Shown: positions 22,500 to 55,097 of the stretch, piece after piece | How the letters are laid out: each line of letters begins with the position of its first letter | Numbering within the stretch: the first letter of the stretch is position 1 | Assembly: GCA_004020545.1 (NCBI GenBank) | Contig: SAQE01000021.1 | Coordinates: 25,941-89,940, forward strand | Source of the DNA: Mesorhizobium sp. | Lineage (GTDB): Bacteria; Pseudomonadota; Alphaproteobacteria; Rhizobiales; Rhizobiaceae | Length of the DNA: 64,000 nucleotides | Direction: 5' to 3' | Notes under the pieces: generated by a model | Seen by the model: the letters and a program-made list of their open reading frames with translations, nothing else | The model's database searches: none | What the model was told of the DNA's origin: nothing | Position numbers and translations under genes: made by a program

Positions 22500-23051
22500 T
22501 CAGGCCGCGCTCGGCACCAACTGGCGGCTGCCGCCAAGGGCAAGCGCCGCGCCGGCCGCCACCACCAGCGCCATGCCGGCGAGGATGCCGATGTCGTGCA
22601 GGGTGGGCTTCAGCACCATGTCGGCGAGGATCACCAGCATGACCGCATAGTCGAGGCGCGCCCAGCTCATCATGCGCTGGCCGATGGCAAGAACAGCGGG
22701 CGTGATACCTTCCTTGGCGACCATGGCGCCCATCCGCTCGCCGGTCGGTTTGAAGACGAGCATACCGATCGAAAACGTCGTGGCGTAGCCGACAAGGCCG
22801 ATGACGATCCACAGCTCGGCGAAGCCCACCCAGAAGGCACACATGACGAGGCCGAAGATCAGGGTGAGCATCGACATCGGCGCGAAGAACCGGCCGCCGA
22901 GCTGGCCGCTGGCGCGCATCGCCTGCAGCTTTTCCTCGATGTTGCCGGCGCGCTCGGCAAGCATGCCGAGCAGGAACAGAACGAAACCGCCGCCGACCCA
23001 CAGAACGGCCGAGACGACGTGGAGGAATTTGACAATCGAGTACCAGTCCAT
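22500..23051 (-). CDS. DUF2269-like integral membrane protein
   Basis: 183 residues with four to five hydrophobic helices: WYSIVKFLHVVSAVLWVGGG at the N-terminus with a conserved His, MSMLTLIFGLVMCAFWVG near 60-78, LWIVIGLVGYATTFSIGML near 83-100, and two C-terminal helices. Function unknown. The ATG at 23051 follows CAGGAG. Divergent from the sRNA/rcdA region. Confidence 0.8.
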   Translation of the reverse strand: MDWYSIVKFLHVVSAVLWVGGGFVLFLLGMLAERAGNIEEKLQAMRASGQLGGRFFAPMSMLTLIFGLVMCAFWVGFAELWIVIGLVGYATTFSIGMLVFKPTGERMGAMVAKEGITPAVLAIGQRMMSWARLDYAVMLVILADMVLKPTLHDIGILAGMALVVAAGAALALGGSRQLVPSAA

Positions 23052-23286
23052 GGGTGTGCTCCTGGATGTCTTTCTTGATTTGCGGCAGCGCGGATTTGCG
23101 CCAGCCCTCGAGAGGAGCGGCGTTTTGCGTTGCGCATGTTTCGGAACGATGTCGCGGCGGCGGCCGGCATGTTTCGGCGCCGCGATCGGCATCCGAAAAT
23201 CCGGTTCTCCGCGAGCCGGGAAGGCGAAACCGATCCGTCCCGTTCCGGCACAGGAAAGTCCGTTCGGTTAAAAATTCCGCCCGGCG

Positions 23287-23301
23287 TTAAGGCTTCATTA
23301 A
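23287..23301. promoter_or_regulatory. CtrA-type binding site (TTAA-N7-TTAA) for the candidate sRNA
   Basis: TTAA-GGCTTCA-TTAA is a perfect match to the CtrA consensus. It overlaps the expected -35 position of a TACTAT -10 at 23316-23321, the usual placement for CtrA activation. Confidence 0.65.
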
Positions 23302-23327
23302 GCTTTACAGGCATTTACTATGCGCAT

Positions 23328-23424
23328 CCAGTTTTTCTGGATTCTTACCGAGTGGTTGGAGCCACTTTGTTTGACGCCTCCCTGTTAAACTCCTGAGAGC
23401 CGCCTTATCCGCGGCTCTTTTTTT
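23328..23424 (+). ncRNA. candidate trans-acting sRNA with anti-Shine-Dalgarno loop
   Basis: A gene-free region that folds into four consecutive hairpins. SL1 is CCAG-TTTTT-CTGG (23328-23340). SL2 is AGTGG-TTGGAG-CCACT (23351-23366). SL3 is GTTTGAC-GCCTCCCT-GTTAAAC (23369-23390), one G-T pair, presenting CCTCCC in the loop. SL4 is AGAGCCGC/GCGGCTCT followed by seven Ts, an intrinsic terminator. A -10 TACTAT at 23316-23321 and a CtrA-type box precede it. No coding frame explains the terminator. The anti-Shine-Dalgarno loop is as in several alphaproteobacterial sRNAs (NfeR1/alpha-r14, CcsR types); identity is unproven, and it could be a homologue of EcpR1. Confidence 0.72.
23396..23424 (+). terminator. 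intrinsic terminator of the candidate sRNA
   Basis: AGAGCCGC (23396-23403) / GCGGCTCT (23411-23418) with a seven-T tail. No protein gene on this strand ends nearby. Confidence 0.88.
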
Positions 23425-23458
23425 GTCCGCTGCCGGCCGGGGAGAGCGCAGCCCGGCG

Positions 23459-23473
23459 TTAACCGTTTGTTAA
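23459..23473. promoter_or_regulatory. CtrA-type binding site (TTAA-N7-TTAA) upstream of rcdA
   Basis: TTAA-CCGTTTG-TTAA, a perfect consensus match ending 115 nt before the rcdA start codon. It is 35 nt after the sRNA terminator, so it should act on rcdA. Confidence 0.65.
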
Positions 23474-23588
23474 ACATGCGCTTGCCTTCATGGGCGTCGA
23501 AGCGCATTTTCAAGCCTCAGTCATTTAAGGGTGCAGGACGTATCGGCAAGGATGCCGAATCGGCTTGCGGCAGTGCAGGGGCGTATCG

Positions 23589-24119
23589 ATGACCGAGCCT
23601 TCGACGGGCAGCGCGAAAACCATAAAGCTCGCGGAACGCAGGGTTTTCTCCCAATCTTTCAAGCCGCTCTACCAGGAGGGCATGGGCCTGGTCGAACAGG
23701 CGGCCGAATATCTCGACGGCAAGGGCAGGCTCGAAGCCAAGAAGCTGTCGCGCACGGCGGCGACGCTCTATGCGGCCGAATCGATGCGGCTGACCACCAG
23801 GCTGATGCAGGTCGCGTCGTGGCTGCTGCTGCAGCGGGCGGCGAATTCAGGCGAAATGACCCGAGACCAGGTCGCTTCTGAAAAATCCAAGGTGCGGCTC
23901 GACACCGCCTCCGCGCATGACGAGGTGCTGGGCTGGAACGAATTGCCGAAGGAATTTCTGGACCTTGTGAGCCGGTCGCTGCGCCTGCAGGCGCTGGTGC
24001 GTCGCATGGACGAAGAGATTTATGGCGGCGCCGTGAACGAGCCGCCCAGCTCCGCCCGCCGCGCCAATCCGGTTTCCGACCAGATATCGCTGCTGAACAC
24101 GGCGTTCGCACGCGGCTAG
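23589..24119 (+). CDS. rcdA: RcdA (DUF1465), regulator of CtrA degradation
   Basis: 176-residue DUF1465 protein, the RcdA family. In Caulobacter RcdA is a ClpXP adaptor needed for cell-cycle degradation of CtrA. Recognisable segments are SQSFKPLYQEGMGLVEQAAEYLDGKGR near residues 20-45, YAAESMRLTTRLMQVASWLLLQRA near 58-82, and LDLVSRSLRLQALVRRMDEEI near 124-144. The ATG at 23589 is chosen over 23565 because it follows CAGGGGC. The upstream CtrA-type site would let CtrA drive its own removal. Confidence 0.88.
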   Translation: MTEPSTGSAKTIKLAERRVFSQSFKPLYQEGMGLVEQAAEYLDGKGRLEAKKLSRTAATLYAAESMRLTTRLMQVASWLLLQRAANSGEMTRDQVASEKSKVRLDTASAHDEVLGWNELPKEFLDLVSRSLRLQALVRRMDEEIYGGAVNEPPSSARRANPVSDQISLLNTAFARG

Positions 24120-24191
24120 CCTGACCGCTGCCTGTTTCTGCTTTGTTCACATTTTGCTGGCATCCCCAAGCGCGGCGGCTAGACTTGGCGC

Positions 24192-24701
24192 ATGGGGGAA
24201 GCGATTCGCATCATCGGCATCGATCCGGGACTGAGGCGCACCGGCTGGGGCATCGTCGAGAGCCTCGGCAATTCGCTGCGCTTCGTCGCGTCCGGCACCG
24301 TGCGTTCGGACGACAAGGCGCCGCTGGCGACGCGGCTCTGCCAGTTGCATGACGGGCTGGCCGAGATCCTGCACCAGGCCATGCCGCATGAAGCGGCGAT
24401 CGAGCAGACCTTCGTCAACAAGGATGCGACCGCGACGCTGAAGCTCGGCCAGGCGCGTGGCGTCGCCATGCTGGTGCCGGCGCGCGCCGGGCTGGTGGTC
24501 GCCGAATATGCCCCCAATGCGGTCAAGAAAGCGGTCATCGGCGTCGGCCACGGCGAAAAGAAGCAGATCCACATGATGGTCAAGGTGCTGATGCCGAAGG
24601 CGATCTTCGACACCGATGACGCTGCCGACGCTTTGGCCATCGCCATCTGCCACGCGCATCACCGCCAGAGCGTCGCCTACCGGCTGGCGGCGCTGGCGTG
24701 A
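24192..24701 (+). CDS. ruvC: Holliday junction resolvase RuvC
   Basis: 169-residue endonuclease that cuts Holliday junctions. Catalytic acidic residues are visible: D11 in [15 protein letters not shown], Glu in [14 protein letters not shown] near 72, and the C-terminal DxxDA in [12 protein letters not shown]. First gene of ruvCAB; ruvA starts 10 nt downstream. Confidence 0.97.
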
Positions 24702-42066: not shown

Positions 42067-42081
42067 TTAAACGGCTTTTAA
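42067..42081. promoter_or_regulatory. CtrA-type binding site upstream of the first omp gene
   Basis: TTAA-ACGGCTT-TTAA, perfect consensus, ending 74 nt before the start codon at 42156. Confidence 0.6.
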
Positions 42082-42155: not shown

Positions 42156-42998
42156 ATGTTGAATACAGCAAGAATGGCATTGTTTGCCGCGCTGTTCGCG
42201 GGGGTGGCCGGGCCGGCGCTTGCCGCCGACCTCGCGGAACCGCCTCCGGTCGAAGAGGCGCCGCCGCCAGTCGTCGAGGCTCAGCCGGTCGATGTCGGCG
42301 GCTGGTACATCCGCGGCGATATCGACTACCACTGGTCGCGCTTCCGCGGCGGCGACTACATCACCTACGGCGCGGCGCCCCAGACCCAGGGCAGCTTCGC
42401 CAGCGGCAAGCTGAAAGGCGCCTTCTCCGCCGGCGCCGGCGTCGGTTACCAGGTCAATCAGTATTTCCGCACCGACCTCACCGCCGACTGGCTGGCCAAG
42501 TCCAATTTCAGCGGTTCGACCGATGGCTTCTGCGCCGGCGGGGTGCCTTGTACCTCCGTCGACACCTCGTCCTATTCGGCGCTGCTGCTTCTGGCCAATG
42601 CCTATGTCGACATCGGCACCTGGCACGGTGTCACGCCCTATGTCGGCGCCGGCATCGGCGGCGCCTGGGTCAAGTGGGATACGCTGCACAACACAGATCT
42701 CGACGGTTCGTTCGAGCATGCCGGCGGCAAGGGCTGGCGCTTCGCCTATGCGCTCATGGCCGGCGCCTCCTACTGCCTGACCGATCGCGTCAAGCTCGAT
42801 GTCGGCTACCGCTACAGTCATATCAATGGCGGCAAGATGTTCGAATATGCCTCGGACAGCAATGTCGGCCCGGGCTACGATCGCGGTATCAACGTGCATG
42901 AAGTGCGCGGTGGCCTGCGCTACCAGTTCGGCAGGTCCGACTGCGCCCCGCCGCCGGAACCCTACGTACCGGAGCCGGAGCCGATCTACACCAAGTAA
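42156..42998 (+). CDS. Outer-membrane beta-barrel protein (Omp25/Omp31-like)
   Basis: 280 residues: signal peptide (about 1-23, ending PALAAD), a Pro/Glu/Val-rich linker (about 26-48), then an eight-strand-type barrel with alternating hydrophobic strands (GWYIRGDIDYHWSRF; GVGYQVNQYFRTDLTADW; GVTPYVGAGIGGAWV; RVKLDVGYRYSHI). It ends in a Pro/Glu tail (PEPYVPEPEPIYTK) instead of an aromatic last residue. Homologous in layout to the neighbour at 43206. Likely abundant envelope protein. Confidence 0.85.
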   Translation: MLNTARMALFAALFAGVAGPALAADLAEPPPVEEAPPPVVEAQPVDVGGWYIRGDIDYHWSRFRGGDYITYGAAPQTQGSFASGKLKGAFSAGAGVGYQVNQYFRTDLTADWLAKSNFSGSTDGFCAGGVPCTSVDTSSYSALLLLANAYVDIGTWHGVTPYVGAGIGGAWVKWDTLHNTDLDGSFEHAGGKGWRFAYALMAGASYCLTDRVKLDVGYRYSHINGGKMFEYASDSNVGPGYDRGINVHEVRGGLRYQFGRSDCAPPPEPYVPEPEPIYTK

Positions 42999-43109: not shown

Positions 43110-43124
43110 TTAACCGCCACTTAA
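43110..43124. promoter_or_regulatory. CtrA-type binding site upstream of the second omp gene
   Basis: TTAA-CCGCCAC-TTAA, perfect consensus, ending 81 nt before the start codon at 43206. A further TTAA at about 43134 lies downstream. Confidence 0.6.
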
Positions 43125-43205
43125 CCACTATGGTTAACAATGCATCCTGGAAACGGCAGCTGTGCTCGCGTTCGCGACTGGCGCCAACTTCAGGAGCCGG
43201 GGACC

Positions 43206-44066
43206 ATGACATCAAAATCGCGTATCGCACTGGCGCTCGCTGCAATCGTGCTGATACCGGCGACACAGGCGCTGTCGGCCGACTACGATCCGCCGATTTA
43301 TGTCGACCAGGCGCCGGACTACCAGCCCGTCGAGGTCGGTTCGGGCTGGTACCTGCGCGGCGACATCGGCTACGCCTTCAGCCATCCGTTCAAGCATGAG
43401 GAAGTCTCGAGCGGTCCGCTGAACAGCTTTACCGACGAGGCCAGCCTGTTCACCGGCAGCATCGGCATGGGCTATCACGTCAACGACTATCTACGGGTCG
43501 AGTTGAACGGCGGAATCCTGCCGACCGACAAATTCGCGGCACATGACAAGCTGGGAGCGACCTGCGACGGCCACACGCTTGTGGATGACGGTTTCGGAAC
43601 CATCAATTCCGTAGCGGCCACCCAAGCCTGCGACCTCTCCGACAATGCCTCCAACAAAGGCTACAGCGTCATGGCGAACGGCTATGTCGACCTAGGCACC
43701 TATGTCGGACTCACCCCTTATATCGGCGGCGGCATCGGGCTCGCTTACAACAAATACTACAGAAGTATCGGCGCGCGCGACTGCGTGGAGGTTCCGACGA
43801 ACAGCGCCGGCACGGGAGGATTTTTCTGCGACGATCCCGCCGGCTATGAAGGGCAGACCGACACCGCGGGGAAGTTCAATCTCGCCTATTCGATCGGTGC
43901 AGGCCTGTCCTACCAGGTCACCAAAAACGTTTCCGTCGATCTCGGCTACGAGTATTTCTCGGTGCCGGGCGCCAAATACGTCGCCTATGACGGAGGCGCC
44001 TTCAACATCCACAAGGGTATTGACTATCAGACGGTCAAGCTCGGTCTGCGTTACGATCTCTGGTAG
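43206..44066 (+). CDS. Outer-membrane beta-barrel protein, paralogue
   Basis: 286 residues: signal peptide (SRIALALAAIVLIPATQALSA), the same entry motif GWYLRGDIGYAF as the upstream gene, a barrel with GMGYHVNDYLRVELNGGI and GLTPYIGGGIGLAYNKYY, and a last strand QTVKLGLRYDLW ending in an aromatic residue as BAM substrates do. Four Cys in loops may form disulfides. ATG at 43206 after AGGAGCCGGGGACC. Each paralogue has its own CtrA-type box. Confidence 0.86.
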   Translation: MTSKSRIALALAAIVLIPATQALSADYDPPIYVDQAPDYQPVEVGSGWYLRGDIGYAFSHPFKHEEVSSGPLNSFTDEASLFTGSIGMGYHVNDYLRVELNGGILPTDKFAAHDKLGATCDGHTLVDDGFGTINSVAATQACDLSDNASNKGYSVMANGYVDLGTYVGLTPYIGGGIGLAYNKYYRSIGARDCVEVPTNSAGTGGFFCDDPAGYEGQTDTAGKFNLAYSIGAGLSYQVTKNVSVDLGYEYFSVPGAKYVAYDGGAFNIHKGIDYQTVKLGLRYDLW

Positions 44067-44179: not shown

Positions 44180-44260
44180 CGCCGGAAGCCTGAACGCATA
44201 TCGCCGTCCGTGGGCCACCCCTCCCCAACGAGGGGCCACTATCTGGAAGGATAGACCACG
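44180..44260 (+). promoter_or_regulatory. serC leader RNA motif
   Basis: Two hairpins directly before serC. The first is CCCCTC-CCCAAC-GAGGGG (44218-44235), flanked by GTGG/CCAC. The second is CTATC-TGGAAG-GATAG (44239-44254), whose loop holds the GGAAGG Shine-Dalgarno 6 nt from the ATG. A conserved serC leader is known upstream of serC-serA in alphaproteobacteria, and this matches in position and form. Probably controls translation initiation in response to a serine-related signal. Confidence 0.72.
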
Positions 44261-54793: not shown

Positions 54794-54945
54794 GACCGTC
54801 GCCCTTACCAGCCCCGCCCGCGAAACGGAAGCCGGGCGCATCCAAACGGAACGGCGCTCGTTATGGAGTGAGCCGTGATGCATTGGATGCCCGGCAAACT
54901 TCCGCTTGCGCGCCGTTTCGGCCGGGCCTATGTCTGCAATCGCTC

Positions 54946-55043
54946 TAACGGGGTGCCGGACGCTGACTTTCGCGAACCGGCTGAGAGGCAACAAAGCCAA
55001 CCCGCTGAACCTGATCCGGTTTGTACCGGCGGAGGGATTAGAC
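54946..55043 (+). promoter_or_regulatory. TPP riboswitch (THI element)
   Basis: Conserved TPP-aptamer blocks in order: GGGTGCC near 54951, GCTGAGAGG near 54980, ACCCGCTGAACCTGATCCGG near 55000-55019, and TACCGGCGGAGGGA near 55024-55037. It lies about 55 nt before thiB, so thiamine diphosphate should turn off the transport operon. I see no clear terminator; control may act on the GAAGGAGG ribosome binding site. Confidence 0.95.
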
Positions 55044-55097
55044 GTCTCGGACGATCCGACGCCTCAATTCCTTGTCACGCGAACGAAGGAGGCGCCG

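Follow-up and report, generated by a model that had tools for sequence, protein, structure and literature searches.

The interval that precedes rcdA, the gene for an adaptor in the proteolysis of CtrA, raises the question of whether it encodes a small RNA (sRNA) of its own and whether CtrA governs that RNA. A preliminary description of the 64,000-nt stretch of Mesorhizobium DNA analysed here (the window) had proposed such a gene, with its own promoter and intrinsic terminator and with rcdA adjoining, and a transcript of about 97 nt starting near 23328. When the folded region was searched against Rfam with covariance models, positions 23280-23424 (+) matched RF02356 (BjrC1505, an alphaproteobacterial sRNA) over the full model (1-140 of 140) with 70.2 bits, the gathering cut-off being 50, and both the family core GACGCCUCCCUG and the terminator are present. 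The match takes in the promoter as well as the predicted RNA; the figures for the transcript were amended to a predicted 5' end at 23326 and a length of 99 nt, the sRNA itself being retained. As to a small reading frame, this transcript contains no ATG, and its longest closed GTG/TTG frame has 14 codons. The next gene is rcdA according to NCBIfam NF051867 (206.5 bits, cut-off 170) and to Pfam PF07323, which also matches; it is followed by ruvC, ruvA and ruvB, and a DUF2269 gene lies upstream of the sRNA on the other strand. The Rfam match, the fold, the terminator and the RcdA profile matches thus support the proposed gene and its setting (Table 1), whereas the suggestion that the RNA might form a new family was wrong, this RNA being RF02356 and very probably published also as SmelC671. 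Elsewhere in the window, Rfam matches above cut-off were obtained for 6S RNA (697-852), a serC leader (44208-44259) and a TPP riboswitch (54939-55054).

Table 1. Features of the sRNA and rcdA region, in window coordinates.
Feature	Position	Strand	Basis
CtrA box TTAA-GGCTTCA-TTAA (TTAAGGCTTCATTAA), in place of the -35 element of the sRNA promoter (candidate site)	23287..23301	+	sequence, rarity, conservation
-10-like element TACTAT	23316..23321	+	sequence; positions 28-34 after the box conserved in the family
Predicted sRNA, RF02356 BjrC1505 member, 99 nt	23326..23424	+	Rfam match, fold
Hairpin 1	23326..23342	+	fold; covaries
Hairpin 2	23350..23367	+	fold; covaries in the BjrC type
Hairpin 3, drawn by fold	23369..23390	+	fold, without covariation support
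Conserved core GACGCCTCCCTGT with anti-Shine-Dalgarno CCTCCC	23373..23385	+	invariant in 18 diverse sequences, which had been selected for GACGCCTCCC
Intrinsic terminator (hairpin 4 and T-run)	23395..23424	+	stem 23395-23419, T-run to 23424; covaries
Second CtrA-box sequence TTAACCGTTTGTTAA, before rcdA	23459..23473	+	pattern match
rcdA, adaptor for proteolysis of CtrA	23589..24119	+	NF051867, PF07323

Neighbourhood and core motif make it very probable that BjrC1505 and the S. meliloti sRNA SmelC671 (Sm84) are the same locus. In the accessible text of the S. meliloti reports, Sm84/SmelC671 is placed at 2986421-2986520 (+) with a length of 100 nt (PMC2873474), which agrees with the 99 nt predicted for the window RNA, and sits between SMc03988> and SMc03989> (PMC2573895, Table 1); it was detected by Northern blot, microarray and sequencing (PMC2573895, PMC2873474), the Northern band being of about 80 nt for an expected 110 nt or so, and it gave array signals under six stresses from a promoter marked as sigma-70-like (PMC2573895). 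ReC71 is given as its R. etli counterpart in the accessible text of PMC3927594. SmelC671 is also described there and in PMC2873474 as an RNA of about 100 nt with a 3' terminator and with variable hairpins on either side of a single-stranded stretch that holds CUCCCUGU; the window RNA likewise carries CUCCCUGU and lacks covariation in hairpin 3. The two forms differ in the letters GACGCC before CTCCC, which have been lost from the Rhizobium/Sinorhizobium-type RNA; unlike the window RNA, it is unable to form hairpin 3. In S. meliloti, 14,168 nt separate Sm84/SmelC671 from the 6S RNA gene on the opposite strand, and in six relatives that carry the RNA upstream of rcdA it lies likewise on the other strand, 9,462-15,029 nt away; from this shared layout the position of SmelC671 was matched. 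The genome of the window departs from this layout, with 6S RNA 22.4 kb from the sRNA and encoded on the same strand. BjrC1505 is reportedly less abundant in nodules.

The predicted RNA folds into four hairpins with -36.1 kcal/mol, the mean of 200 shuffles being -19.9 (z -5.3). Covariation was assessed by swapping arms between sequences, using 132 non-identical BjrC-type transcripts and 25 of the SmelC671 type, and in an alignment of 18 diverse sequences. In the BjrC type, own arms paired more stably than swapped ones (own/swapped, in kcal/mol) for hairpin 1 (-6.33/-4.34), hairpin 2 (-9.84/-6.96) and hairpin 4 (-15.96/-12.88), and the alignment holds four, four and three pairs changed on both sides for hairpin 1, hairpin 2 and the terminator, respectively. 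Hairpin 3 gave no such support among the 132 transcripts (own -2.71, swapped -2.60, sd 0.17); a single one of its seven pairs was changed on both sides and one pair was broken in 8 of the 18 sequences. In the SmelC671 type, hairpins 1 and 4 respond to arm swaps, hairpin 2 as cut there gives no signal (-6.75/-6.69) and hairpin 3 barely forms (-0.33). The four consecutive stem-loops of the preliminary description, terminator included, are therefore borne out by the fold and by the covariation of hairpins 1, 2 and 4, but not its third hairpin as a conserved stem displaying the anti-Shine-Dalgarno sequence, even though this hairpin can be drawn as it was described, with seven pairs, one of them G-U, and the loop GCCUCCCU (the minimum-energy fold adds another G-U pair). 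Since hairpin 3 does not covary, the conserved element is the sequence GACGCCUCCCUGU, within which CCUCCC lies. Of the 136 family loci that pass a core rule itself demanding CTCCC, 135 retain CTCCCTG.

The RNA is widespread among relatives. Among close relatives, 58 of 61 have an RF02356 match; for the genomes of the taxonomic family, the order and the class the counts are 120 of 151, 126 of 150 and 30 of 289. None of 14 control genomes has one, those named for other families including Caulobacter. A script rule recognised core and terminator in 117 of the 120 family matches, and in 112 of these 117 loci rcdA follows on the same strand at 147-497 nt (median 221). In the other five, which belong to three genera, rcdA lies outside the fetched stretch: 4.6 kb further on from the sRNA in one genome (G363), on another draft-genome contig in two, and either distant on the same contig or on a different one in the last two. 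RcdA is present in 149 of the 151 family genomes, and 19 of the 29 that have rcdA without a model match carry a divergent RNA with CTCCCTG upstream of it; among the remaining ten, seven have genomes of at most 2.0 Mb and one more (L304) has, by eye, a CCTCCTG variant. When loci of the order were found by way of RcdA, 23 of 30 passed a strict motif rule and six of the other seven carry a version recognisable by eye. The first 45 or so positions of RF02356 correspond to promoter sequence, after which the window transcript starts. The Rfam model appears to handle the CtrA box and the -10 element, both of them promoter DNA, as if they were structured RNA, a possible reason for the low scores or missing matches of divergent copies of the Rhizobium/Sinorhizobium type.

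We then considered the promoter. The TTAA-N7-TTAA motif that had been pointed out at the -35 place of TACTAT was confirmed, and its conservation makes the case for a CtrA box far stronger. The exact pattern occurs four times in the window, where shuffles predict 0.01, and 24 times in the 7.0-Mb genome, two of these sites falling in the sRNA-rcdA intergenic region; as a reversed control pattern occurs 38 times in the same genome, TTAA-N7-TTAA is not over-represented as such genome-wide. A simple scan of positions 22500-24500 found no sigma-70 consensus promoter. Among 113 family loci, an A stands at position 30 after the box in 96%. In Caulobacter, promoters activated by CtrA have a box in place of the -35 element at a steady distance; together with the -10 element and the outcome of the sigma-70 scan, this arrangement suggests that CtrA activates the sRNA. 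The window's two other exact sites (42067-42081 and 43110-43124) stand just before the neighbouring frames 42156-42998 and 43140-44066, whose translations resemble, by eye, outer-membrane beta-barrel proteins.

Boxes were counted in the 65 nt before the RNA, a segment further upstream and dinucleotide shuffles serving as controls. Loci without a core, with a weak score or with too little upstream sequence were left out beforehand (4 of 120 family, 11 of 29 divergent family, 6 of 80 order and 4 of 80 Mesorhizobium-type loci), and the order and class loci counted are the better-scoring ones. An exact box was present in 76.7% of 116 family loci, and one with at most one mismatch in 96.6% (shuffles 0.5% and 9%); the corresponding values were 94.7% and 100% for 76 Mesorhizobium-type loci, 50% and 72.2% for 18 divergent family forms, and 52.7% and 90.5% for 74 loci of the order. 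Further upstream, no exact box and at most 2.7% with up to one mismatch were counted, and the shuffles over these locus sets gave 0.5-1.1% and 5.6-11.9%. The half sites are 94-100% conserved and the spacer 32-72%, as measured in 113 loci that had been preselected to contain no more than one mismatch.

Because the Rfam model contains the promoter, loci found through it lean towards carrying the box, and the test was therefore repeated with loci found by RcdA and with a covariance model of the transcript only (R1). Of the 23 order loci found by RcdA that have the motif, ten have an exact box and 22 have one with at most one mismatch. R1 matched in 66 of 385 class genomes, from which 28 loci were taken (16 family numbers, several of them repeated, the window locus and L120 being left out): 11 carry an exact box, 14 have one mismatch and three have more, the box being absent in two (3 and 4 mismatches) and having two mismatches in the third, compared with 0.5% exact and 7.7% one-mismatch boxes in shuffles that preserve base content only. 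In 21 of the 25 good loci, the distance from the first base of the box to the model start is 35-47 nt, this start having been set from the motif in five loci cut by contig ends. The box is also kept by all five family RNAs that have no rcdA beside them (four exact, one with one mismatch), which indicates that the box accompanies the RNA and not rcdA; rcdA itself appeared in 13 of the 28 class-level stretches. A second exact box lies between the RNA and rcdA, in raw counts, in 87 of 112 family, 17 of 19 divergent family and 77 of 77 Mesorhizobium-type loci, and in 14 of 73 loci of the order.

We consider it fairly probable that the RNA is driven by CtrA, masks Shine-Dalgarno sequences and is the local copy of BjrC1505/SmelC671 (Sm84). 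Phosphorylated CtrA would bind the TTAA-N7-TTAA box standing in for the -35 element and drive transcription of an RNA of about 99 nt ending at the intrinsic terminator; the conserved, largely single-stranded stretch GACGCCUCCCUGU, flanked by two variable hairpins and the terminator, would pair in trans with purine-rich Shine-Dalgarno sequences, so blocking translation of the target mRNAs. Control of the sRNA by CtrA is well supported by sequence comparison, and we infer CtrA binding, activation and not repression by it, and repression of targets by the RNA. As had been proposed, the RNA may repress many mRNAs and may be timed by the cell cycle; nevertheless, the signals of Sm84 under six stresses and the sigma-70-like marking of its promoter caution against assuming strict timing by CtrA or by the cell cycle.

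Published observations on rcdA fit this reading. In the accessible text of PMC4433202, a CtrA ChIP signal is reported for S. meliloti in the promoter region of rcdA, yet rcdA was unchanged on CtrA depletion; the signal, whose placement is not given in that text, is compatible with CtrA control of the sRNA, and an sRNA promoter in the rcdA region offers an explanation for CtrA binding without an rcdA response. In agrobacteria, several rcdA start sites and a possible CtrA site are reported for three lineages (accessible text of PMC10469942, without positions), and one of these starts could be that of the sRNA. CtrA control of the BjrC1505/SmelC671 sRNA was not found in the freely accessible literature searched, nor was any CtrA link in the one paper there that names BjrC1505, and the word CtrA is absent from the accessible text of PMC3927594, PMC2873474 and PMC2573895. 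The RNA itself is known, and the link of its promoter to CtrA seems to be new as far as the literature searched shows.

As to targets, CCUCCC resembles the 16S anti-Shine-Dalgarno sequence and, by this analogy, should mask Shine-Dalgarno sequences, a mode of action proposed for other alphaproteobacterial sRNAs in the accessible text of PMC3927594 and PMC7143759. Target prediction with the CCTCCC loop, recommended in the preliminary description, gave no specific result: exact complements AACAGGGAGG before ATG yielded 27 matches in 15 genomes, fewer than the 72 of the permuted control ACAAGGGAGG in the same genomes. Many periplasmic binding proteins follow AACAGGGAGG, which had made ABC transporters candidate targets, but similar proteins follow the control (protein types judged by eye from the translations of all 27 test loci and of 30 of the 72 control matches). 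The control being commoner and leading to similar proteins, these matches reflect strong Shine-Dalgarno sequences and are no evidence for targets. Two single candidates were rejected: gcrA, whose core pairing is unremarkable (-15.3 kcal/mol) and whose full-length energy joins distant pieces and means little, and rcdA, whose start region GCAGGGGCG pairs with the core at -15.6 kcal/mol, the rcdA frame ranking 6th among 50 window genes under the same rule.

The same evidence bears on other explanations. A stress or housekeeping sRNA could be transcribed from a sigma-70 promoter and be repressed or trimmed through the box while CtrA is active; we regard this as unlikely, for while the stress signals and the sigma-70-like annotation of Sm84 favour it, and a box overlapping the promoter is a possible repressor seat too, the scan gave no sigma-70 consensus and the steady spacing of a box in place of the -35 element is that of CtrA-activated promoters. 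Were the sRNA mainly a repressor of rcdA, CtrA would thereby slow its own destruction, as the pairing of the rcdA start and the position of rcdA downstream of the RNA in most family loci might suggest, but that pairing is unexceptional, five family genomes keep the RNA with no rcdA adjoining, and 15 of the 28 class-level stretches showed no rcdA, which leaves this option improbable.

The RNA being on the same strand as rcdA and a median of 221 nt upstream of it, one might also see it as an rcdA leader or attenuator, with no separate RNA and with both boxes serving rcdA, and the several agrobacterial rcdA start sites would suit such an arrangement. We give this very little credence: the terminator and then the second box precede rcdA, five family genomes carry the RNA without rcdA beside it, and in S. 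meliloti a band of about 80 nt and a 100-nt RNA are described in the accessible text of PMC2573895 and PMC2873474. Least credible of all is identity with EcpR1 (SmelC291), which the preliminary description had entertained as a homologue. Both RNAs come from rhizobia and are linked to the cell cycle, but EcpR1 is described downstream of divK-pleD with two predicted stem-loops (accessible text of PMC4414408), SmelC291 and SmelC671 are treated as separate families in that of PMC3927594, and the window RNA matches RF02356 over its full length; it has a DUF2269 gene and rcdA-ruvCAB as neighbours, not divK-pleD or rpmG, and three covarying hairpins plus a conserved stretch instead of two stem-loop domains.

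CtrA-driven expression of a Shine-Dalgarno-masking RNA remains our preferred reading, and two further systems may be compared with it. CcnA of Caulobacter crescentus, compared by description only, is likewise reported to be a CtrA-activated sRNA with a C-rich pairing loop, but it lies at the chromosomal origin and has a much stronger fold of -56 kcal/mol (accessible text of PMC8959179); a CCCC loop A is among the features described for it. The MmgR/suhB and AbcR-type anti-Shine-Dalgarno sRNAs (RF00519) share the exposed CUCCC and the 3' terminator, but the window RNA scores only 21.2 bits with this model, below its gathering cut-off of 41.

A broader proposal, which we hold tentatively and with less assurance than the reading for the window, is that of an ancient arm from CtrA to the sRNA: CtrA would have driven the RNA since before the Hyphomicrobiales split from several other alphaproteobacterial lineages, its near-unchanging anti-Shine-Dalgarno core would work when CtrA is active, the seat beside rcdA would be common and not required, and CtrA binding upstream of S. 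meliloti rcdA would be accounted for. In any case, two catalogued sRNAs without assigned function, BjrC1505 and SmelC671, seem to represent a single locus, and the promoter they share has a CtrA box across the order as well as in other families of the class. Should CtrA indeed control this sRNA, its distribution would be unusually wide for an RNA under CtrA control, and the S. meliloti puzzle of CtrA at rcdA without an rcdA response would become directly testable. At the class level, two genomes (G270 and G704; loci L417 and L420) have the sRNA in two or three copies, some of them about 200 nt apart.
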